A stretch of DNA of 64,000 bases from Sipunculus nudus (lineage: Eukaryota; Annelida; Sipuncula; Golfingiida; Sipunculidae), in contig CM049320.1 in assembly GCA_026874595.1 (NCBI GenBank), positions 9,985,464 through 10,049,463 on the forward strand. The letters run 5' to 3'. Each line of letters starts with the position of its first letter. Position 1 is the stretch's first letter. Below the pieces are notes generated by a model. It had not been told where the DNA came from. It worked only from the letters and a program-made list of their open reading frames with translations, and made no database searches. The position numbers and the translations under genes are program-made. Shown here in pieces: positions 1 through 62,064 of the stretch.

Positions 1-2192
1 TGAAACATTTCGTCCATATTAAGCAATTTTCTAAAATTATATTCATTAGGTTCATGGTATGTTATTGGCAAATATTTATTACGCAAATCCGTGTACATAG
101 GACACTCTAGCAAAAAATGTGCTTCATCTTCAATAATATTAAAACCTTTCTTAAAACAATATTCACAGATCCTCTCTTCTCTGTTGATACCCAGTTGACG
201 GCCAACTTCTATAGCTAATTTATGACTAGAACATCTAAATCTGGCCAATGCATTTCTGTAACCTTTGTTTGTAACACATATTAAATATTTTTCAAGTGTA
301 AGCATAGATTTGAAAACTCCATAAGCATATAATTTACTACTAATATTTATATCATTATGCCATTCTTGTACTGCCATATCTTTTAGTCGTTGTTTGATAC
401 ACATGAGAAAACTATTAGAATCTCCAACATGTTGTGCCATCCACACATAACCAAATCCAGTGTGAAATAACAAGGATCTCATATGGGTAGCCCATGTTGT
501 TTTTCCCTTATAATCTAGCTTTACCAACATATTATAAATGTGTTTGGGATACCTACTTTCATCCATATGAAGAAGTCTAAGCCAATATTTCAAACAGCGC
601 TCAGAGGATTTTATAAATAAAGGAAGACGCCTACAGTCTCCTAATACTGCTGCATTTACAGTGCTACTATTTACTTTTAAAATATATTCACAGAATTTAT
701 ATTGAACTCTTTCTATCAACTCAACTCTACTAAAGCCCCAAAGCTCACTTCCATATAAAATAATTGGTACAACCATAATATCGAAGAGCTTAAAAAGCTG
801 ATTGATATTTAGATGCTGGTATTTATAATTAAATTTTTTTATCATACATACTACTTTATTTGCTTGTATTACTTGTTGCTTTTGTGTTTTTGTCCAAGAA
901 AGTTTATTAGTAAAGGTGATTCCAAGGTATTTGTAGTGAGATACAACATCTAGTTTCTTACCTTCAAAAAGCAATTTTCCGATTTTCGTAAAATACCTCC
1001 TCGACGACAAACCATAACTTTAGTTTTATTTAAATTTACTTTCATACCATAATTGCGGCAAAAATTGGCAATATGATCTATTTGTCTCTGAAGTCTTCCC
1101 GTTGTATCTGAAAAATTTACTATATCATCTGCAAACATAAGAGTAACTAAATTTGGAAGGTGTTCATTAATATAAGTTCCCTTACAACCAGAACTATTCA
1201 GTGTCAAATAAAACTCATTTATAAATATAGAAAATAATAACGGACTTACCATACATCCCTGTCTCGTCCCTAAAGTGCAAGAAAAATATCCTGTAGTTCC
1301 ATTATCTGTAAGAATACATGATTGCATTTTGGAGTACATTGACCTGATGACTTTTAAAATTTTTCCATTAATACCCTGTTTTTATAAAATATACCATAAA
1401 ATATCATGTTGGACACAATCAAAAGCCTGAGAAAAATCGATATAAATGCAATAGAATCTCCCCCTTCTTTTACTTAAATATTTTTGTATTAACCCCTGCA
1501 AAACAAAAGCATTATCAATTGTACAATAACCCTTCCTATACCCTGCCTGTGCCTCTGCCAATATATCTGAGTCCTCCACATAAACAAACAATCTATTATT
1601 CAGAATTTTAGTGAATAATTTACCAAATACATTTAATAAAGTTATTCCCCTGTAATTAGCCGGATCGTTTATCTGTCCACTTTTGTACAAAGGATATATA
1701 ATTCCTTTGCTCCATTCATCTGGGAAAAAACCTGTGTATAATATACTATTGTACAATTTTTCTAACAATGGAAGTAAAAATTTGATAATAAATTTTATCA
1801 TATCAAGTGTCAAACCATCTGGACCTGGTGCTTTACCTGTCGCCATCTGCTTAACTGCATATTCAATCTCATGTGTAGTGATATCATTATTAAGATAACC
1901 ACAATGCTTATTTTCATCAAAATGTTCTGCTATATATGCATTCACCATATTGTTTCTATGTCCTTCAATTTCATTTCTACTACCATTCAGCAAATCTTTA
2001 AAATATTTAAACCAGCAATCTGCATCAATACCAGTTGATATTCTTTGTTGTTTAAAGTTCTTTAGATATCTCCATAATTCATTAATATTTTTAGTGTTCA
2101 AAACTCTTGATATGGAATTATTTTCATGTTTTTCTTTCTTTTCAGCACATATATTCTTAAACTTTTGTCTTAATATTCTATAAGCCTTCAAG
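1..2192 (-). pseudogene. LINE (non-LTR retrotransposon) ORF2-like reverse transcriptase, 5'-truncated, runs off left edge
   Basis: On the minus strand a conceptual frame from 2192 to base 1 encodes a reverse transcriptase plus a C-terminal tail. Visible blocks in order are KAPGPDGL, the PANYRGITLLN stretch, IDFSQAFDCV, LGTRQGCMVSPLLF and the catalytic FADD (about 1125). A zinc-knuckle-like C-x2-C...H-x4-C follows near 100-170 (CEYC ... HFLLEC). Only two lesions are seen: an in-frame TAA at 1382-1384 and a frameshift near 975-990. After the frameshift the last ~325 codons stay open to the window edge. The endonuclease domain is missing, because the 5' end is cut at about 2192 where LTR sequence begins. 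The ATG at 2210-2212 is LTR-derived, not the native start. Family assignment within LINEs is not possible by eye. Few lesions suggest a fairly recent insertion. Confidence 0.9.
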
Positions 2193-2755
2193 CAACAAGT
2201 CAATACAATCATAGAGAAAATAATGTATGTGCACAGTATCTGGATACCAACGCCATCACAACGATAAGTCCTTTAAAAGTAAACTCTAGGAGAATGACAG
2301 TCCAGTGGAAAGTTCTTGCAACAACCAGAAAGTAAACTGACGTCTAAATGTATAAAATCGGGGAGAAAGTCTTTGAAAATCTATAATTGCCGCATTCTTC
2401 GGATAAGGTCCTGACACACGCTTCTGCGTCTGCTGCAATCTGCTCTGCTGTTCTCTCTGCCTTCCCGTTCTAAAACGCAGCCCCATTATATACCTTCACA
2501 CCTCAAGCCGAGAATTTTCCACTTCTCGAACAGTTTGTAAGGACCCTACTCAACAGTAAACACGCGTTTCAGGAATTCTCTAGAAAACATCGCCGTGCCT
2601 CTACACACCATGGTGTACACGTGATCTCGCCCCAAGCCAGCACAACAACAAGAGTTCAACCAGTACGGAATAACATAGAATGTAATACGCGGCCAGACAC
2701 GAGCGCCACAACAGGGGTTTCGCCCGTCTCACATAATAAAAAGAGCACTGTAACA
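2193..2755 (-). mobile_element. LTR fragment, TGTTACAG family (copy A)
   Basis: The minus strand starts TGTTACAG at 2755 and follows the same course as the LTR copies at 15915-16752 and 27269-28115, including a TATA-like block near 2490 and the CGAGAATTTTCCACTTCTCG block on the plus strand. It stops at about 2193, where the 5'-truncated LINE begins, so roughly the last third of the LTR is absent. Its outer end touches an (AT)-rich tract (GTAACA followed by atatata). Short open frames here are by-products of the LTR. Confidence 0.75.
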
Positions 2756-5009: not shown

Positions 5010-5208
5010 TGTTACCGGATGCAGATAAAAGCCGACCAAGCTGTCTCGCTGTTGGAGCTTTCTTTTCCAGCGAAGCGGTTGAAATACCGGACATGTGCGC
5101 CCCCGACATGAGTTCGAATCCCGGATCGGTCTGTCACACCCCAGGAAGAAATGGACGACCAGGTTTCTTTAAACGCTAAATCAGGCAGATTGAAACTCTC
5201 AGGTAACA
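5010..5208 (+). mobile_element. Solo tRNA-like LTR (TRIM-related, longer subfamily)
   Basis: It starts TGTTACC and ends GGTAACA. The order of blocks matches the minus strand of the 49-kb TRIM LTRs: ATAAAAGC, then GACCAAGCTGTCTCGC, then A box CAGCGAAGCGGTTG (5069), then CCGGACATGTGCGC, then B box AGTTCGAATCCCGG and GATCGG. The 3' half differs and is longer. Neither a primer-binding site nor a polypurine tract flanks it, so it is called solo. Confidence 0.65.
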
Positions 5209-5331: not shown

Positions 5332-5404
5332 AATATAAAAGATGATCACTATAGTCCACATAATTAAAAACTATCACTAAGTTATGTTTACTCCTTTGAT
5401 AAAC

Positions 5405-5920
5405 ACTCGCAGTTCACTTGTTAACACCTCCCCGGATCACATGATCGACGCGCAAACGTGACATCGGAATGTAACCTATAAGCTCAATCTGCTTACACGT
5501 TGTGTACACAAGGATTCTTCAGCGCTACACGCCACCAATCAACTGTCCTTCGCGAGAGTACGCGCTCGTCCCTCAAAGCAGAGTCCACAAAGCACAGACT
5601 GATAGGCGCACAGCTTATTCTAAATGAACTTAAAAGTAATGTCTTGCACAGCTGGTGATTTCATCCAGCATCAAATACCTGAATATGCCCCCCCCCCGTA
5701 CCTTTATCGTTTAGCGTATAAATAATATCCCGGCCTGTTACTGGAAGTGCTCATGGTAGTTACAGATCGCCGGTTTACCAGTCCTTCGGTTTTTTCAATA
5801 CCCTCTCTGTAGCCCGTTACATAGGTATCTGCGTGGCCGTCCCGAAACAGTGAAGATTTACGCTTACAGCTGTTTAGAATCTGATAAACGCAGACATGCC
5901 TCTGGACTGCAGACAGTCGT
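5405..5920. repeat. Unnamed ~520-bp dispersed repeat, copy 1
   Basis: It aligns along its whole length with 16762-17288 in the same orientation. Shared blocks include CCGGATCACATGATCGACGC, GCGCACAGCTTATTCTA, AAGTAATGTCTTGCACAGCT, CTGTTACTGGAAG and AGAATCTGATAAACGCAGAC. No coding capacity. The pair brackets the Gmr1-like element, so they may be its LTRs, but I find no primer-binding site or polypurine tract at the inner edges. Confidence 0.7.

Positions 5921-15444: not shown

Positions 15445-15487
<43 letters not shown>
15445..15487. repeat. (AT)n microsatellite
   Basis: Uninterrupted AT repeat immediately following CCCGTAACA. Confidence 0.95.
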
Positions 15488-15636: not shown

Positions 15637-15792
15637 TGTTATGAAGACAAATTGTTAAGGGGAAAATTCTTGGCTGATCCGGGAGTCGAACCCATGTCGG
15701 TGGCGAACAAGTCCGGCGTACCAACCGCTTCGCTAGTGCAGCAAGCTTCGCTAGCGAGACAGTTCGGTCCCCTTTTATGTCGCCCCGTAACA
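15637..15792 (-). mobile_element. TRIM-type tRNA-like LTR (3' LTR of a chimeric element)
   Basis: 156 bp. On the minus strand it starts TGTTACGGGGCG and ends TCATAACA. It carries an A box (TAGCGAAGCGG, about 15731), a B box (GGTTCGACTCCCGG, about 15695) and a TTTT run shortly after. It is about 90 percent alike by eye to the LTRs at 49001 and 49429. Directly upstream (15803-15793, minus) lies the purine run AAGAGAGAGTG, a polypurine-tract candidate. Confidence 0.8.
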
Positions 15793-15914
15793 CACTCTCT
15801 CTTAAGAGCGTTCTGCTATCAGAACAAGACTAATTATCCCAGAAGTCACACTTTGGTGAGCTTATTTCCTGGGCCACAAGGTTTATCGTCATCCCGGACG
15901 AGCCCCCAATTTTA
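15793..15914 (-). mobile_element. TRIM-type internal region with primer-binding site and polypurine tract
   Basis: 122 bp between the 838-bp LTR and the 156-bp LTR, with no coding capacity. It matches the 120-bp internal region at 49157-49276, including TTCTGATAGCAGAA, AATTAGT, and GTGTGACTTC / AAGCTCAC. Confidence 0.8.
15891..15908 (-). promoter_or_regulatory. tRNA-Pro primer-binding site (18/18)
   Basis: The minus strand reads TGGGGGCTCGTCCGGGAT, the exact complement of the 3' end of tRNA-Pro including CCA. This is the primer site known from gammaretroviruses such as murine leukaemia virus. It lies 6 nt inside the end of the 838-bp LTR, which is the correct place for initiating minus-strand DNA synthesis. 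Confidence 0.85.
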
Positions 15915-16752
15915 TGTTACGGAACCTAATAGCAACAGATCATGTATGCGTGATGATCAAATATTTTGTCAAGGAGATAAAAAAATCAGATTCTGTTACA
16001 CTAGGCAGCGTGAAATGTCTAGGGCAATGAATAAAGAAGTCAGTGTTTTTTTGTTAACAAATAACTATAATTTATTCTTAAAACAACCCTACATTACAAT
16101 ACACTAAATCAATACAATTACACAGTATAACAGCGGTATAACAACAAAGCAATACAATCACACTGTAAAATAAACAAAGAGCACAGTACCTGAATACCAC
16201 CACTGTCACAACGATAAGTCCTTTTAAATGTATATGCCAGATGAAAAGTCCACGCCAATCCTTTCGGAGAATAACAGTCAAATGTAAAGCTATTGTAACA
16301 ATCAAAAGGAAAGTAAACTTGAGGCAGGCAGCATTAAATTGTTTAGATTTAGTAATAGTAGAATCCCTGAAATTACTGGATAATCGGACAGGTACCACAA
16401 ACTGAAATAAACACGTCCGTGCCCGCCGGAATATTTTCTCACCTCTCTCTCTCGGCTCTCTCACAGCCACCTATTTATAACTTCTTGCCCCGAGCCGAGA
16501 ATTTTCCACTTCTCGAACAGTCTAAAGGATCTAACATAATATCCAGTAAACACGCGTTACAGGAATCATCTAGAAGAACATCGCTGTGTCTCTACATACC
16601 AGGGTAAACACGTGAGTCCGACCCGGCCCGGCCAGGCGAAAAAACCCCAAGCTAGCATGACAACGAGAGTTCAACCAGTACGGATTAAACTGAGAGTGCA
16701 ACTACAACACGAGTTACACCCGCGTCACACAACAAAAAGAGCAACTGTAACA
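15915..16752 (-). mobile_element. 838-bp LTR, TGTTACAG family (copy B), next to PBS
   Basis: On the minus strand it runs from TGTTACAGTTGCTC to TAGGTTCCGTAACA. It has a TATA box (TATAAATAGG, about 16480), an AATAAA-type signal (AAGAATAAATTATAG, about 16072) and a U5-like tail. It is followed by the tRNA-Pro primer-binding site, so it occupies the 5' LTR position. A 130-codon open frame (16470-16078) lies across the R/U5 region and is also open in copy D. Confidence 0.85.
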
Positions 16753-16761
16753 GCAGCACTC

Positions 16762-17288
16762 ACTGTTAACTTGTTCAAACGTTTCCGGATCACATGATCG
16801 ACGCGCACACGTGACTTCGGAATGTCGCCTTTGAGCTCAGTCCGCTCACACGATGTGTACATACACATGGACTCTTCAGCGCTACACCCCACAGATCAAC
16901 TGTCCTTTGCTGGAGTACGCGCACGTCCCTCAAAGCAAAGTCCACAAAGCAATAACATATAGGCGCACAGCTTATTCTATATGAATCAGAAGTAATGTCT
17001 TGCACAGCTGAGGTCTCCTGGATTTCTTACCTGAATATGCTCTTCCAACCCCCTACCCCGTGACAATATTCAGTACCTCTCTCGTATCGCGTGCATATAA
17101 TGTCCTAACCTGTTACTGGAAGCGCTCACGGTAGATTATAGTCCTAAGGTAATCGCGATACCCTCTATGAAGTCCGTTACAGAGGTATCAGCGTGGCCGT
17201 CTTTAGACAGTGACAACTTGCACTTACAGACATCGTCTCTTAGATATCAAGAATCTGATAAACGCAGACATGCCACTGGACTACAGTC
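16762..17288. repeat. Unnamed ~520-bp dispersed repeat, copy 2
   Basis: Direct-orientation partner of 5405-5920, roughly 75-80 percent alike by eye over the whole length. Starts just 10 bp after LTR copy B. Confidence 0.7.
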
Positions 17289-17406
17289 AATTGGGGAATG
17301 GTGGCTTGAAGTAATGGGTTAATTACTGCCACCTAGTTCACCAAAAAGTGTGACTACTGGGTAAATTAGTCTTTTTCTGAAGGCAGAACGCTCTAAAGAG
17401 GAGTCG

Positions 17407-17538
17407 TGTTAATGAATGAATATAAGAGTGGACCGAACTGTCTCGCCTGTAAAGCTTGCCGGACATATACGCCATAGACAGGGGTTTAAATCCCGGATCG
17501 GCTCAATATTTTCCCCTGAGAAAAATGTTTACGTAACA
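17407..17538 (+). mobile_element. Solo tRNA-like LTR, internally deleted
   Basis: Starts TGTTAATG and ends ACGTAACA. It contains GGACCGAACTGTCTCGCC and AAGCTTGCC, then jumps directly to GGACATATACGCC and a degenerate B box (GGTTTAAATCCCGG). The A box region is therefore deleted. It then shares CAATATTTTCCCCTGA with the other TRIM LTRs. Confidence 0.7.
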
Positions 17539-26577: not shown

Positions 26578-27268
26578 TGTTACAGATGCCCCTTTTATTG
26601 TGTGCAGCGGTCTTACAGATGATTGTTTTATTGTGCACACGGATGTTCCATGTGTTGTTGGCATTTTGTTTGTAGGCCAAGCGTAGCTCGTGTTCTGGCG
26701 GCCTCGCCTGGCCGGATGTTGCAGGCTCGTTTAATCCGCATTGGTTGAACCCTAGAGACACAGCGTTCCTTGTTCTAGTATGTTCTTTGAAGGTGTGTAC
26801 TGTGTTAGATCCTTAAGATTGTTCGAGCAATGGAAGGTTCTCGGCTGAAGGTGAGAAGTTATAAATAGGGGGCTGTGCTTTAGAGCCGAGAAAGAGGTGA
26901 GAAAATATTCCAGCGGACACATAAGCGTGTATGTCAGTTTGTGGGACCTATTCCGATAAGTGCGGCAGTTATAGATTTTCTTCAGACTTTCTTCTGGATT
27001 TGTGACGAATCTTACTTTGTCTTCAGTTTACTTTCGGGATTGTTACAAGAGCTTTACACTGGACTGTTATTCTCCGAGAGAATTTGTGTGAACTGTTCGT
27101 CCGGCTTATACATTTTAAAGGACTTGTCGCTGTGACAGTGGTGGTATCCAGGTACTGTGCACTTTGATTATTTCACTGCGTGATTGTATTAATTTGTTGT
27201 TATACTGCTGTTATACTGTGTAATTGTATTGATTTAGTGTATTGTAATGTTAGGGTTGTTTTAAGAAT
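26578..27268 (+). mobile_element. LTR, TGTTACAG family (copy C), lacks its 3' tail
   Basis: Starts TGTTACAG and has the TATA box TTATAAATAGGGGG (26858). It stops at TTTTAAGAAT exactly where the other copies continue AAATTATAG, that is, at the AATAAA-type signal. Copy D starts at the next base. Confidence 0.85.
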
Positions 27269-28115
27269 TGTTACAGTTGCTCTTTTTTTTGTGTAACACG
27301 GGCGTAACTCATGTTGTGGCGCCCTCGCCAGGCCGATTGTTTCACTCTATGTGTAATCCGTACTGGTTGAACTCTCTCTGTCATGCTAGCTTGGGGCTTT
27401 CTCGCCTGGCCGAGGTCACGTGTGGACCCTGGTATGTAGAGACACATACAGCGATGTTCTTCTAGATGATTCCTGTAATGCGTGTTTACTGTGTTGTGTA
27501 AGATCCTTTAGACTGTTCGAGAAGTGGAAAATTCTCGGCTTGGGGTGAGAAGTTATAAATAGGGGGCTGTGTTTTAAACCTGGAGAGAGGTTAAAGAAGA
27601 TTCCAGCGGACCCAGACGTGTGTATGTCAGTTTGTGGGACCTGTCCGATTATACAGTAATTGCAGGGATTCTACTGTTACTAACTCTATACAATTTAATG
27701 CTGCCTGCCTCAAGTTTACTTTCTGGATTGTTACAAGAGCTTTACATTGGACTGTTATTCTCCGAGAGGATTGGTGTGGACTTTTCATCCGACGAAGGCA
27801 TTTTAAAGAGCTTGTCTTTGTGACGGTGTTGGTATCTAGGTACTGTGCACATTGTTTACTTTACTGTGTGATTGTATTGATTTGTTGTTATACCGCTGTT
27901 TTACTGTATAATTGTATTGATTTAGTGTATTGTAATGTTAGGGTTGTTTTAAGAATAAATTATAGTTATTTGTTAACAAAAATCCACTGATTTCTTTATT
28001 CATTCCCCTAGACATTTCACGCTGCATAGTGTTACAGAATCTGATTTGTTATCTCCTTGACAAAATTTCTGTTCATCACGCGTAACATGATCTGCTGATA
28101 TTAGGTTCCGTAAAA
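27269..28115 (+). mobile_element. LTR, TGTTACAG family (copy D)
   Basis: A full-length ~847-bp copy: TGTTACAG start, TATA box at about 27555 (TTATAAATAGGGGG), AATAAA at 27954, tail GGTTCCGTAAAA where CA would be expected. It differs from copy C at roughly a quarter of positions in U3, so the two are not the LTRs of one recent insertion. A 118-codon open frame (27634-27990) overlaps the one in copy B. Confidence 0.85.
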
Positions 28116-32504: not shown

Positions 32505-34480
32505 CGTCCGTTAACCAGGCACAAATCGTAACCGCTGGACCTAGAACCTTGTAACTTGGGATTCTGAGAGGTCCATAAAAAATCTCCTTGGAAACCAGAA
32601 ATTAGGTCTCTGTTACCCATATCCTTCGAGCTATGTGGCCCCAAAGTACCCCCCAGAAAAGTCAAAAATTTCATACAAAAACTTCAATATCTCATAAACT
32701 ACTTGACTGATGGTCATGATTTTTGGCATACATATTGATCATGAGATGTTACATCACTTCCTGCAGACTGGTGGCGATACCTGTATTTTTCGATTTTTTA
32801 CGAATTTTTTTCTCTATTTTTGAGACCTTTAAAAATGTGAACATCTGTAAACAAGGCACAAATCATAAAGACTAGACTTAGAATCTTAATTCTTGACACA
32901 CTGAGAGGTCCATGAAAATCTCCTTGGAAACCAGAAATTAGGTCGCTGTTACCCATATCCTTTGAGCTATGGGGCCCCAAAGTACCCCCCAGAATAGTAA
33001 AAAATTTCATACAAAAACTTCAATATCTCAATAACTACATCACTGATGGTCTTCATTTTTGGCATACATATTGATCATGAGATGTTCAATCAGTTCCTGC
33101 AGACTGGTGGCGCCACCTGTACTGTTTGATTTTTTACGATTTTTTCCTCTATTTTTGAGACCTTTGAGGATGCTGTCATCTGTTAGCGTGGCACAAATCG
33201 TAACGACTGGACCTAGAATCTTCATTTTCGACACACTGAGAGACCTATGAAAAGTCTCCATGGAAACCAGAAATTAGGTCTCTGTTACCCATATCCTTCG
33301 AGCTATGGGGCCCAAAATTACCCCCCAGAATAGTCAAAAATTTCATACAAAAACTTCAATATCTCATTAACTACATCACTGGTGGTCATGATTTTCGACA
33401 TACATATTGATCATGAGATGTTTCATCAGTTTGTGCAGACTGGTGGCGCCACCTGTATTTTTCAATGTTCACGAATTGTTTTCTCCATTTTTGAGACCTT
33501 TAAGGATGTAGTTATCTGTCAACAGGGTACAAATCGTAACGACTGGACCTAGAATCTTCGTTCTTGACACACAGGGAGACCCATGATAAGTCTCCATGGA
33601 AACCTGAAATTTGGTCTCTGTTACCCATATCCTTTGAGCTATGGCACTCCAAAGTACAGCTCAGAATAATGGAAAATTTGATACAAAAGCTAAAGTATCT
33701 GAACAACTAATGCAGAGATAACCATAATTGTTTGCATGGATATTGATCATGGAGTGTTTCATAAGTTTCTGCAGACTGGTGGCACCACCTGTATTTGTTC
33801 GGTTTTTATTACGAAATTTTTCTGTATTTTTGAGACCTTTAAAGATATGAACATCTGTTAACAGGGCACAAATCATAAAAACTGGACCAAGAATCTTCAT
33901 TCTTGACACACAGGGAGACCCATGAAAAGTCTCCATGGAAACTTGAAATTAGGTCTCTGTTACCCATATTCTTTAAGCTGTATGGGTCCAAAATTACCCC
34001 CCCCCCCAGAATAATGGAAAATTTGATACAAAAACTGCAGTATTTCAATAACTACAACACTGTGTGTCATGATTTTCGGCATACATATTGATCATGAGCT
34101 GTTCCATGTGTTCCTGCAGACTGGGTGTGCCACCTCTATTTTTTTTTCAAATTTTTACGAATTTTTTTCTTTTTTTTGAGACCTTTAAAGATGTGGTTAT
34201 CTGTCAACAGGGTACAAATCGCAACAACTGGACCTAGAATCTTCATTCTTGTCATGCAAGGAGGCCCATGAAAGGTGCCTGTGGAAACTTGAAATTAGGT
34301 CTCTGTTACCCATATCCTTCAAGCTATAGGACTCCGAAGTATCCCTCAGAATAATGGACAATTTGATACAAAAACTGAAGTATCTGAACAACTAATGCAG
34401 AGATCACCATGATTTTTTGCATGGATATTGACCATTAAGTGTTTTTATTAGTTTCTGCAGACTGGTGGAGCCACCTGTAT
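32505..34480. repeat. Tandem array 1: six copies of a ~340-bp unit
   Basis: The phrase CACAAATCGTAACGACTGGA (or close variants) starts units at 32518, 32855, 33190, 33528, 33866 and 34213. Each unit has CTCTGTTACCCATATCCTT, a CCCCCAGAATA block, CATACATATTGATCATGAG and ends GCAGACTGGTGGCGCCACCTG. The right copies are more diverged. Confidence 0.9.
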
Positions 34481-34484
34481 TTTT

Positions 34485-34514
34485 GTATCCGCCAAAACAA
34501 AGTTTTGCGGATAC
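34485..34514. repeat. Hairpin at the array boundary
   Basis: GTATCCGCCAAAAC, then AAA, then GTTTTGCGGATAC is an almost perfect 13-14 bp inverted repeat exactly where array 1 gives way to the next segment. The palindrome CCGCCGCGGCGG follows at 34536-34547. Confidence 0.8.
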
Positions 34515-34699
34515 TATGTTTTTGACCAAGTTCCTCCGCCGCGGCGGCGTTCGTTTCCAGAGAGCTCCTCGGAGACTAATGGACCGATTTTTCCCAAACT
34601 TACACCTATCATCGGGTCACATGTGAACTGGTGCCTAACCAATTTGCATTGACCTCTGACCTTTACTCTCTATCCAGTGTCCATTTGTGGGTCTGTTTC

Positions 34700-35560
34700 C
34701 ACTCATAAACCCTCATATCTCGGGAACCGTTTGACCGATCAGGAAATAAAATTGATACAAATGTAGCCCTTGGATTGCTTTATAACATACACAAAAAATG
34801 GTGGCGCCACCTGTAACCATGTTTGCACAGTGTCCATCTGTTCATCTGCCTTGGGTTAAAATCACTCATATCTCTGCAGTGAATTGACTAATTCACCTGA
34901 AATTCGTCATGTGTATACATCCAGGATAGCTTTCTTGATTTTATGACAGGTGGCGCCACCTACGTTCACGTTCACGCTGATGACATCCAAGCTTATATCT
35001 CGGGAACCGTTTGACCGATCAGGAAATAAAATTTATACAAATGTAGCCCTTTGATAGCTCTGTAACATACACAAAAAATGGTGGCGCCACCTGTAACAAT
35101 GTTTGCACAGCGTCTGTCTGTTAGTCTGCCGTGGCCTAAAATTACTCACTTCTCTGTAGTGGTTCGACATAACTGCCTAAAATTTTGCAGGTTTATACAT
35201 CGTGGACAGCTTTCTTGATTTTATGACAGGTGGCGCCACCTACATTCTAGTTTACGCTGGACACATCCAAGCTCATATCTCAGGAACCATTTGACCGATT
35301 GGGCCAAAATTGTGCATGTGTTTAGATCTCACATAGGTCTTTATTATACACAAAACTGGAGGGGTTACCTGCAAATTTTTTTGCACAGTGTTTGTCTGTT
35401 TGTCTGCCATGGGCAAAAATTGCTCATATACATGTAGTGGTTTGACTTTTCTGCCTAAAATTTTGCAGGTGTATACAACTTGGACAGCTTTCTGCATTTG
35501 TGGTAGGTGGCACAACCTACATACACATTTAGGCTGCAGACATCCATGCTAATATGCAAC
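34700..35560. repeat. Tandem array 2: three copies of a ~280-bp unit
   Basis: TATATCTCGGGAACCGTTTG-like phrases start units near 34710, 34990 and 35272. Units carry TAGCTTTCTTGATTTTATGA and CAGGTGGCGCCACCTAC. The third unit is more diverged. Confidence 0.85.
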
Positions 35561-47880: not shown

Positions 47881-48956
47881 TAGGAAAATTAAAATAATTC
47901 TGGATTCAAATTCCAACCTCCATGATATGGCTGTAACTTTCTATGATCTTTTTTTTTAATGTAGACAAGATTCAAGCCCGAGTTATAAAAAATATATTTC
48001 ACCGGGATCGAATACCATATGAAAATAGATAATTTTGCAACTACGCCTTAACTTGCTTTAATTCCTAAAAAAAATTGTCAGTTTTGTTAAAAATAATACG
48101 AAATATTGTATAAAGACCTCGTTATATATCAAACGAGTGTTTTTTTTTTTTATTAAAAAATGGTGCATACTGTCGTGTCTTTTCTGGAAGCTGAATAAAT
48201 TGCAGATATTTAGTCTTCTTGGCAAATGTAACCGAAATATTCACTCTCTCAATTTCTATATATTATATTTATATACAGTATATTCATTGTCATAGAGTCC
48301 ATTTGAGATTTCCTTCCTTATGCTGTGTTGTGGGCCACACAAACTGTCCTGCCTCACAATTGTAAGGAATCAACTAATTAAAACATATAATTGCAATCCA
48401 GATTATTATAGAAATTCAAGTTATGTTCATGAGGAGTTGCCCTAGTCAAACATAATATTTCATCAACTTCCATTGATTCCATTAATTACTTCATTTATAG
48501 GGTCTATTCTGATATATGACGTCCAGTAACTGAAGAATCTTAATCTGTTTGACATAGGCTAGAAAATAGGCTAGAAAACGCTGGTCCATCCGCACAATAT
48601 TTGTTCGTTTTAATTATATTCAAATGTTTATAACTTTGAGGGGACAAGGACATCTGGTAGCACGTCAGACGAGACAGTATTGCAAACAGTGTTATGCAAC
48701 TATTATTCTCTCAGCTTCTGCATATGGCTGCTATTTTTGGTCACCTTTGCTTTGTATAGCAACAGTTTGTATATAGTAGGGATAACATTTTTTCTTAACA
48801 TGAATAAGATAGAGTTCATTAATTTGTACGCAGCGAAAGCCAGAAATCACATAAATTCAGAGGCATATACAGGATTTATGAAAGGGGTGTACTGCAGTCG
48901 GCTTGGGTTACGGGGGCGGGGGTGTGCAGCGAATCCGCTGACCAACATATATGTAC
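47881..48956. other. Intronic, no recognised feature
   Basis: AT-rich; a plus-strand frame from 48680 continues into the TRIM array and is not a gene. Confidence 0.4.

Positions 48957-48959
<3 letters not shown>

Positions 48960-49000
<41 letters not shown>
48960..49000. repeat. (TA)n microsatellite, left flank of TRIM array
   Basis: About 20 TA units ending immediately before TGTTACGAAG. Confidence 0.95.
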
Positions 49001-49004
<4 letters not shown>

Positions 49005-49156
49005 ACGAAGACAAATTATTCAGGGGAAAATACTGGGCCGATCCGGGAGTCGAATCCATGTCGGTGGCGCACAAGCCCGGCGTACCAACCGCTTCGCTAG
49101 AAAAGCAAGCTTCACTAGCTCGACAGTTCGGTCCGCTTTTATGTCACCCCGTAACA
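49001..49156 (-). mobile_element. TRIM LTR 1 (3' LTR of array), with internal Pol III-type promoter
   Basis: 156 bp, TGTTACGGGGTG...CTTCGTAACA on the minus strand, so its termini are 7-bp perfect inverted repeats. The A box TAGCGAAGCGG (about 49100) fits TRGCNNAGYGG at all positions. The B box GATTCGACTCCCGG (about 49060) has one change from the consensus. ATTTTCC follows as a T4 stop. Confidence 0.85.
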
Positions 49157-49276
49157 CACTCCCTCTTAAGACCTTTCTGCTATCAGAACAAAACTAATTA
49201 TTCCAGGAGTCACACTTTAGTGAGCTTATTCCCTGGACCATAAAAGTTTACCGTCACGTTGGACGAGCCCCCATTT
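49157..49276 (-). mobile_element. TRIM internal region with PPT and PBS
   Basis: 120 bp. On the minus strand it starts after AAA with the primer-binding site and ends with AAGAGGGAGTG (49167-49157) directly before the 3' LTR, as a polypurine tract should. The hairpin-forming TTCTGATAGCAGAA lies in the middle. Confidence 0.8.
49256..49273 (-). promoter_or_regulatory. tRNA-Pro primer-binding site (13-nt core)
   Basis: TGGGGGCTCGTCCAACGT on the minus strand. The first 13 nt match the tRNA-Pro complement, and the last 5 diverge from the perfect 18-nt site at 15891. Confidence 0.8.
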
Positions 49277-49381
49277 TGTTACGAAGACAAATTATTCAGG
49301 GGTAAATATTGGGCCGATCCGGGATTCGAACCCATGTCGGCGGCGCACATGTCCGGCATACCAACCGCTCCGCTATAAAAG
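49277..49381 (-). mobile_element. TRIM LTR 2, 5' part deleted
   Basis: It keeps the A box (TAGCGGAGCGG), a perfect B box (GGTTCGAATCCCGG), GATCGGCCC, the T run and the CTTCGTAACA end. The U3-like first ~45 bp and the adjacent polypurine tract are gone. Confidence 0.8.
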
Positions 49382-49407
49382 CCTGGGCCACGATGTTTTT
49401 TACCCTC

Positions 49408-49425
49408 ACCTTGGACGAGCCCCCA
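49408..49425 (-). promoter_or_regulatory. tRNA-Pro primer-binding site, second copy
   Basis: TGGGGGCTCGTCCAAGGT on the minus strand, 3 nt inside LTR 3. Confidence 0.8.
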
Positions 49426-49428
49426 TTT

Positions 49429-49578
49429 GTAACAAAGACAAGTTATTCAGGGGAAAATACTGTGCCGATCCGGGAGTCGAGGCATGTCGATGGCGCACAA
49501 GTCCGGCGTACCAACCGCTTCGCTAGAAAAGCAAGCTTCACCGGCGAGACAGTTCGGTCCGCTTTTATTTCACCCCGT

Positions 49579-49582
<4 letters not shown>
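49429..49582 (-). mobile_element. TRIM LTR 3 (5' LTR of array)
   Basis: 154 bp, TGTTACGGGGTG...CTTTGTTACA on the minus strand. The A box is intact (TAGCGAAGCGG) and the B box is damaged (GCCTCGACTCCCGG). Confidence 0.85.

Positions 49583-49658
<76 letters not shown>
49583..49658. repeat. (AT)n microsatellite, right flank of TRIM array
   Basis: Starts right after CCCCGTAACA and runs for about 38 units. Confidence 0.95.
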
Positions 49659-61951: not shown

Positions 61952-62064
61952 TAGAATACACAGAAAAGTCGGTTCACTGCCGATGGGAATCGAACCAATG
62001 ATCTTCCGATATCCAGATGGGTTCGATTCCCATCGGCAGTGAACCGACTTTTCTGTGTATTCTA
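61952..62064. repeat. Perfect 45-bp inverted repeat of a tRNA-derived SINE 3' part
   Basis: The arms 61952-61996 and 62020-62064 are exact reverse complements with a 23-nt loop. The right arm reads GGTTCGATTCCCATCGGCAG then CTTTTCTGTGTATTC, the B box and tail start of the SINE family at 45301. This is two SINE ends head to head. Confidence 0.9.

Follow-up and report, generated by a model that had tools for sequence, protein, structure and literature searches.

Layout of the repeat array at 49 kb

The stretch of DNA analysed here, which we call the window, is 64 kb long. On its minus strand, a 582-bp array between 49582 and 49001 reads LTR, tRNA-Pro primer-binding site (PBS), shortened LTR, PBS, non-coding leader, polypurine tract (PPT) and LTR (Table 1). 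Alignment of the LTR pair, which a preliminary description of this DNA had proposed, gave 91% identity between the outer direct repeats by BLAST within the window (49001-49156 vs 49428-49582). That description counted three LTRs of ~155 bp, each running from TGTTAC to GTAACA, separated by a leader of ~120 bp. Two LTRs are indeed full (155 and 156 bp), but the middle one is 106 bp long and begins shortly before the A box, without TGTTAC; the 3′ LTR has both ends as claimed, whereas the 5′ LTR terminates in sense GTTACA, which is the one end that the description had written TGTAACA. The leader length holds for the second internal region, and the first is a 45-bp remnant. The repeats are spaced by 276 and 150, so one unit is ~126 bp short and we read the array as LTR-I-LTR-I-LTR with one deletion. 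TGTTAC/GTAACA is an inverted terminal repeat of these LTRs, and the plus strand therefore also seems to begin an LTR at 49001. Elsewhere in the window, two tandem arrays close to one another occupy 32518-35555, with units of 336 bp (5.8 copies) and 280 bp (3.0 copies).

Table 1. Coordinates of the 49-kb array, its flanks and related copies in the window
Feature	Position	Strand	Remarks
(AT)n flank	48958..49000
3′ LTR	49001..49156	-	TGTTAC...GTAACA, 156 bp
T4 run, 3′ LTR	49027..49030	-	15 nt past B box
B box, 3′ LTR	49046..49056	-	GATTCGACTCC, 1 change
A box, 3′ LTR	49089..49099	-	TAGCGAAGCGG
TATA-like motif, 3′ LTR	49137..49142	-	ATAAAA, LTR position 15
Second internal region	49157..49276	-	non-coding, 120 bp
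PPT	49157..49167	-	AAGAGGGAGTG, immediately 5′ of an LTR
PBS	49261..49273	-	13 nt, tRNA-Pro
Middle LTR	49277..49382	-	truncated, 106 bp, upstream third gone, no TGTTAC start
First internal region	49383..49427	-	remnant, 45 bp, includes PBS
PBS	49413..49425	-	13 nt, tRNA-Pro 3′-end complement
5′ LTR	49428..49582	-	TGTTAC...GTTACA, 155 bp
T4 run, 5′ LTR	49454..49457	-	15 nt past B box
B box, 5′ LTR	49473..49483	-	decayed, GCCTCGACTCC, 2 changes
A box, 5′ LTR	49515..49525	-	TAGCGAAGCGG
(AT)n flank	49583..49658
Helenus-type LTR, truncated	5010..5129	+	A and B boxes, 1 change each
Helenus-type copy, LTR and internal region match	15637-15921	-	BLAST within window
Helenus-type LTR	15637..15792	-	156 bp, both boxes exact
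Internal region of 15.8-kb copy	15793..15914	-	PPT; 18/18 tRNA-Pro PBS at 15908-15891
838-bp Pol II-type LTR	15915..16752	-	TGTTACAG...CCGTAACA, with TATAAATA and AATAAA
Helenus-type copy, decayed	~17335..17538	+	partial internal region, PPT, LTR; A box deleted

The priming site and the PPT fared better than the repeat count, and both were found where the preliminary description had placed them. The two PBSs of the array (TGGGGGCTCGTCC, with a 2-nt spacer after the 5′ LTR end) lie directly past LTR ends and match the complement of the tRNA-Pro 3′ end at 13/13 of their first 13 nt, with 3 and 4 mismatches over 18 nt. A passage of PMC1769482 prints the 18-nt reference string as a tRNA-Pro PBS, and a passage of PMC10993922 gives the same string for a tRNA-Pro primer. 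No sense-strand open frame of at least 110 aa overlaps 49001-49582, and three antisense (plus-strand) frames of 124-209 aa do. BLAST within the window found three further copies of the type named Helenus (discussed below) besides the array, and the 15.8-kb copy among them matches tRNA-Pro at 18/18 positions of its PBS. The assignment of the array to TRIMs stands on its LTR size (TRIM LTRs are ~100-250 bp and elements <1000 bp), a PBS 3′ of the 5′ LTR and a PPT 5′ of the 3′ LTR, the lack of sense coding and the three further copies.

We considered whether the locus could instead be a tRNA-derived SINE or satellite in tandem, whose PBS and PPT are look-alikes. The tRNA-like sequence, the tandem layout and the (AT)n flanks would suit such an origin, but the 13-nt and 18-nt tRNA-Pro matches sit immediately 3′ of LTR ends, the PPT sits immediately 5′ of an LTR, the TGTTAC/GTAACA ends are inverted, and the independent 15.8-kb copy has the same internal region. 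In addition, a PBS scan of the window beyond these elements returned two matches only, each with 4/18 mismatches and neither starting TGG. We regard this origin as very improbable.

A possible, weak stem-loop lies in the Helenus-type internal region at 49195-49241 and 15830-15876 (minus strand), where reading the 49-kb against the 15.8-kb copy by eye shows a single pair altered on both sides, from T-A to C-G. This hairpin was set aside, with z = -2.05, -1.15 and -1.35 for three excised pieces, and neither internal region, folded whole, has it in its minimum-energy structure.

The tRNA-like segment of the LTRs

All three repeats of the array carry an A box (TAGCGAAGCGG or TAGCGGAGCGG) with 0 mismatches to TRGYNNARYGG and, 31-32 nt past it, a B box of the GGTTCGANTCC form with two mismatches in the 5′ LTR, none in the middle repeat and one in the 3′ LTR. 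The preliminary description had reported an A box and a GGTTCGA-type B box followed by T4 in each LTR: the pair is recognisable throughout, but only the middle repeat has a B box free of changes, and TTTA stands there in place of the T4 of the outer LTRs. Comparison of six LTR copies, the three 49-kb repeats and three others, found both boxes recognisable in 5/6; the 17.4-kb copy has lost its A box by deletion, and its best remaining pair has 4 mismatches. Dinucleotide shuffles (3000 per repeat, both strands) were performed on five of the six copies, leaving out the 17.4-kb copy. The box pair was equalled in 6/3000, 0/3000 and 0/3000 shuffles of the 5′, middle and 3′ repeats of the array, 0/3000 of the 15.8-kb copy and 2/3000 of the 5.0-kb copy. 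Across the 64-kb window and both strands, three A and B pairs have at most one mismatch in all (49375/49332, 49099/49056 and 15735/15692), every one within a Helenus-type LTR. At two mismatches three further pairs appear, in the 5′ LTR, the 5.0-kb copy and an unrelated foldback (62067/61996). The inverted repeat at 61980-62050 is a tRNA-half foldback with arms carrying the B-box-like sequences GGTTCGATTCC and GGAATCGAACC.

The tRNA search of the LTR that had also been proposed came back empty, since neither ARAGORN nor Rfam at its gathering score found a tRNA in the 49-kb LTRs. We reject a functional tRNA gene on these two results and take the segment as a promoter remnant and not a tRNA gene; this part of the LTR looks to serve as a promoter only. 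A permissive Rfam search of 48950-49650 gave 23 weak matches, none of which reached the gathering score or involved the tRNA family; 20/23 overlap (AT)n tracts, and all 23 are taken as chance. Two further features are not claimed. The predicted 84-85-nt Pol III RNA is no more stably folded than its mononucleotide shuffles (z -0.15 to -0.30, 3/3 LTRs folded). The copies are too few to show that the boxes are better conserved than the LTR around them: the 3′ LTR and the 15.8-kb LTR differ at 17/156 positions, including 0/11 in the A box and 1/11 in the B box. We infer that the 49-kb LTRs would be transcribed by Pol III and would yield a separate small RNA.

Relation to Helenus and proposed mechanism

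It had been suggested in the preliminary description that an animal TRIM with a tRNA-like LTR might be undescribed. This kind of element is already described as Helenus, defined as TRIMs with tRNA-derived sequence in their LTRs (Kojima 2024, PMC10886601) and known from fungi, one plant and six animal phyla, which for Helenus/TRIMp3 are Mollusca, Arthropoda, Chordata, Brachiopoda, Nemertea and Ctenophora. Animal Helenus families have 4-bp duplications and prime at tRNA 3′ ends, tRNA-Pro being among the bivalve primers; their PBS regions are shared with Gypsy elements, and a helper was inferred from PBS similarity and duplication length. Most Helenus are not predicted to encode a tRNA, tandem arrays occur in a zebrafish family, and Pol III transcription is putative (all PMC10886601).

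The 49-kb element fits the tested features of a Helenus-type TRIM (TRIMp3), with the published families compared by description only. It shares short LTRs with tRNA-derived A and B boxes, a tRNA 3′-end PBS, a short internal region, a PPT, the absence of coding, the order of parts and an overlapping size range, and its tandem layout resembles that of the zebrafish family. Unlike the usual Helenus boxes, which are TRGCY and YGG for A and GGTTC for B (PMC10886601), the fifth A-box base is G and not Y in the copies that keep the A box, and GGTTC is exact in the middle 49-kb repeat alone; the truncated middle LTR also sets the array apart from published Helenus. From its anatomy and the three further copies, the element is well supported as a TRIM with a putative tRNA-like Pol III promoter in its LTRs.

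As cited in PMC10886601, the plant TRIM Cassandra likewise has a Pol III promoter within its LTR, and the title of a 2020 paper listed there places it in tandem arrays; its promoter, however, is 5S-derived and it belongs to land plants, whereas that of the 49-kb element is tRNA-like. The biv-TRIM of bivalves (PMC6934838) is also an animal TRIM with tandem arrays and solo repeats, but has 202-218-bp repeats, a 77-80-bp inner domain and no unambiguous PBS. The 155-156-bp LTRs and 120-bp internal region found here fall outside those sizes, and the tRNA-Pro PBS is clear. PbTRIM of the harvester ant (PMC3532108) is likewise an animal TRIM. Among the titles and abstract openings listed in searches for Helenus (2023 on) and for TRIMp3, no later study of these elements was found. 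Exact-pattern scans of viral, bacterial and archaeal contig collections returned no relatives, a result with no bearing on animals.

LTRs with shared inverted ends, a tRNA-Pro PBS, a PPT and A and B boxes at tRNA spacing are directly present. We consider it probable that the array derives from a protein-less Helenus-type TRIM (TRIMp3), of which it is a tandem copy that has been rearranged and has partly decayed, and that the element worked as follows. The boxes would recruit Pol III, with a start ~10 nt upstream of the A box, and part of the transcripts would end at the T4 ~85 nt on, while others would pass a leaky 5′-LTR T4 and end at the 3′-LTR T4, yielding a genomic RNA with redundant termini. 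Its packaging would fall to a Gypsy-class helper, which would also prime on tRNA-Pro, make the plus strand from the PPT and integrate the product via the TGTTAC/GTAACA ends. Later unequal recombination would have produced the LTR-I-LTR-I-LTR array, in which a deletion of ~126 bp would have shortened the middle repeat.

Against this mechanism, many transcripts would end before full length at the 5′-LTR T4, which separates the boxes from the PBS; ATAAAA at LTR position 15 keeps Pol II possible; the 5′-LTR B box is decayed and the 17.4-kb A box deleted. The G at the fifth A-box position, the foldback pair at two mismatches and the unremarkable fold of the predicted RNA also weigh against it. The T4 and the TATA-like motif, which reads ATAAAA or ATAAGA at LTR position 15-16 in 5/5 copies keeping that part, favour a rival reading in which Pol II makes the genomic RNA from the ATAAAA motif, the tRNA-like segment being a captured piece of a SINE, either inert or the source of a short RNA alone. 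Pol III genes, however, can also carry upstream TATA-like motifs, which we count against this proposal. Furthermore, AATAAA or ATTAAA is absent past the boxes in all six LTR copies, the sole AATAAA (5′ LTR) overlaps the ATAAAA motif, and the boxes are recognisable at tRNA spacing in five of the six. In our assessment this rival reading is unlikely.

The (AT)n flanks, the 838-bp LTR and a candidate helper

ATAT/ATAT at the ends of the 49-kb array fits a 4-bp target-site duplication but is uninformative with (AT)n on both sides. Across the 64-kb window, (AT)n tracts of at least 16 nt run straight into TGTTAC at 3/24 outward ends; two of these three are both ends of the array, so they count as two elements. 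TGTTAC occurs 72 times in 128 kb (both strands), for which simple arithmetic gives ~0.01-0.03 expected at (AT)n ends. The start at 2755 of an 838-bp-type LTR, a second LTR type treated below, also has TGTTAC after a shorter AT run. Directly at the (AT)n tract at 15445-15487, another sequence starting TGTTACGGGCGTCG runs leftwards on the minus strand from ~15444. Drosophila errantiviruses favour TATA, CGCG or ATAT targets according to a passage of PMC5408687, a parallel that is suggestive only.

The 838-bp LTR at 16752-15915 is joined directly upstream of the 15.8-kb Helenus internal region, abutting its PBS. It shares the TGTTAC/GTAACA ends of the Helenus LTRs, but agreement is limited to the termini, and similarity between the two types is not significant (best E 2.2, sense strand only). 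Its relatives lie at 27269-28113, ~26641-27268 and 2755-2193, the last two 3′-truncated. Full-length members of this family are ~838-845 bp, two copies stand head to tail at 26.6-28.1 kb, and TATAAATA is present in 3/4 copies and AATAAA in both copies reaching that far. The flank of the 838-bp LTR at 16757-17000 is itself a repeat, with 83% identity to 5404-5644.

No coding region attached to the 838-bp-type LTRs was seen within the window. Decayed Gypsy-like frames at ~6.7-10.5 kb, assigned by eye, had no Pfam match for the two frames searched and no tRNA-Pro PBS upstream, so no coding helper is seen in the window. Among 8 open frames of the window only RVT_1 scored above the Pfam cut-off, in 2/8; non-LTR-type reverse transcriptase fragments (RVT_1) occupy two frames at 950-2272 (minus strand) and overlap the LTR match at 2193-2755 at its end. 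A protein search with the LINE reverse transcriptase gave 68 matches, the few organism-named ones being fishes, and two other protein queries from the window had no matches.

A normal reverse-transcription product carries two like LTRs. The recombinant at 16752-15637 has unlike LTRs and unlike 4-bp flanks (CTGC vs AACT), so we read it as recombination between integrated elements, with the recombination point probably at or near the shared LTR-end/PBS stretch. The 838-bp LTR is thereby a candidate LTR of the helper, and the junction hints at an element that may move Helenus. The 838-bp LTR abutting a Helenus PBS and the elements with TGTTAC/GTAACA ends beside (AT)n are what is new here. It is possible, but to us doubtful, that a Helenus TRIM driven by Pol III sits in the window together with the LTR of its helper, a Gypsy-class element driven by Pol II, that the two have only integrase ends, the site of tRNA-Pro priming and a preference for ATAT-type targets in common, and that the recombinant is a physical record of their pairing. 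We give close to an even chance to a helper unrelated to the 838-bp LTR, in which case the 15.9-kb junction is a chance breakpoint between adjoining repeats. The unmatched flanks, the lack of significant similarity between the LTR types and the other 838-bp-type copy with an intact 3′ end (27269-28113, with no PBS after it) favor chance, but the junction coincides with the boundary of LTR and PBS, and the two LTR types have their TGTTAC and GTAACA ends in common.

If the pairing of TRIM and helper is true, it would reveal short cues that suffice for trans-mobilisation without LTR homology. The 5′-LTR T4 poses a paradox, in that a genome made by Pol III has to read through the 5′-LTR stop and still terminate in the 3′ LTR. 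A helper candidate in the same genome, together with this T4, makes two points testable, namely the cues for helper recognition and a full-length Pol III genome that extends past an internal stop. Helenus suggests that a captured tRNA promoter can drive LTR elements as it does SINEs.
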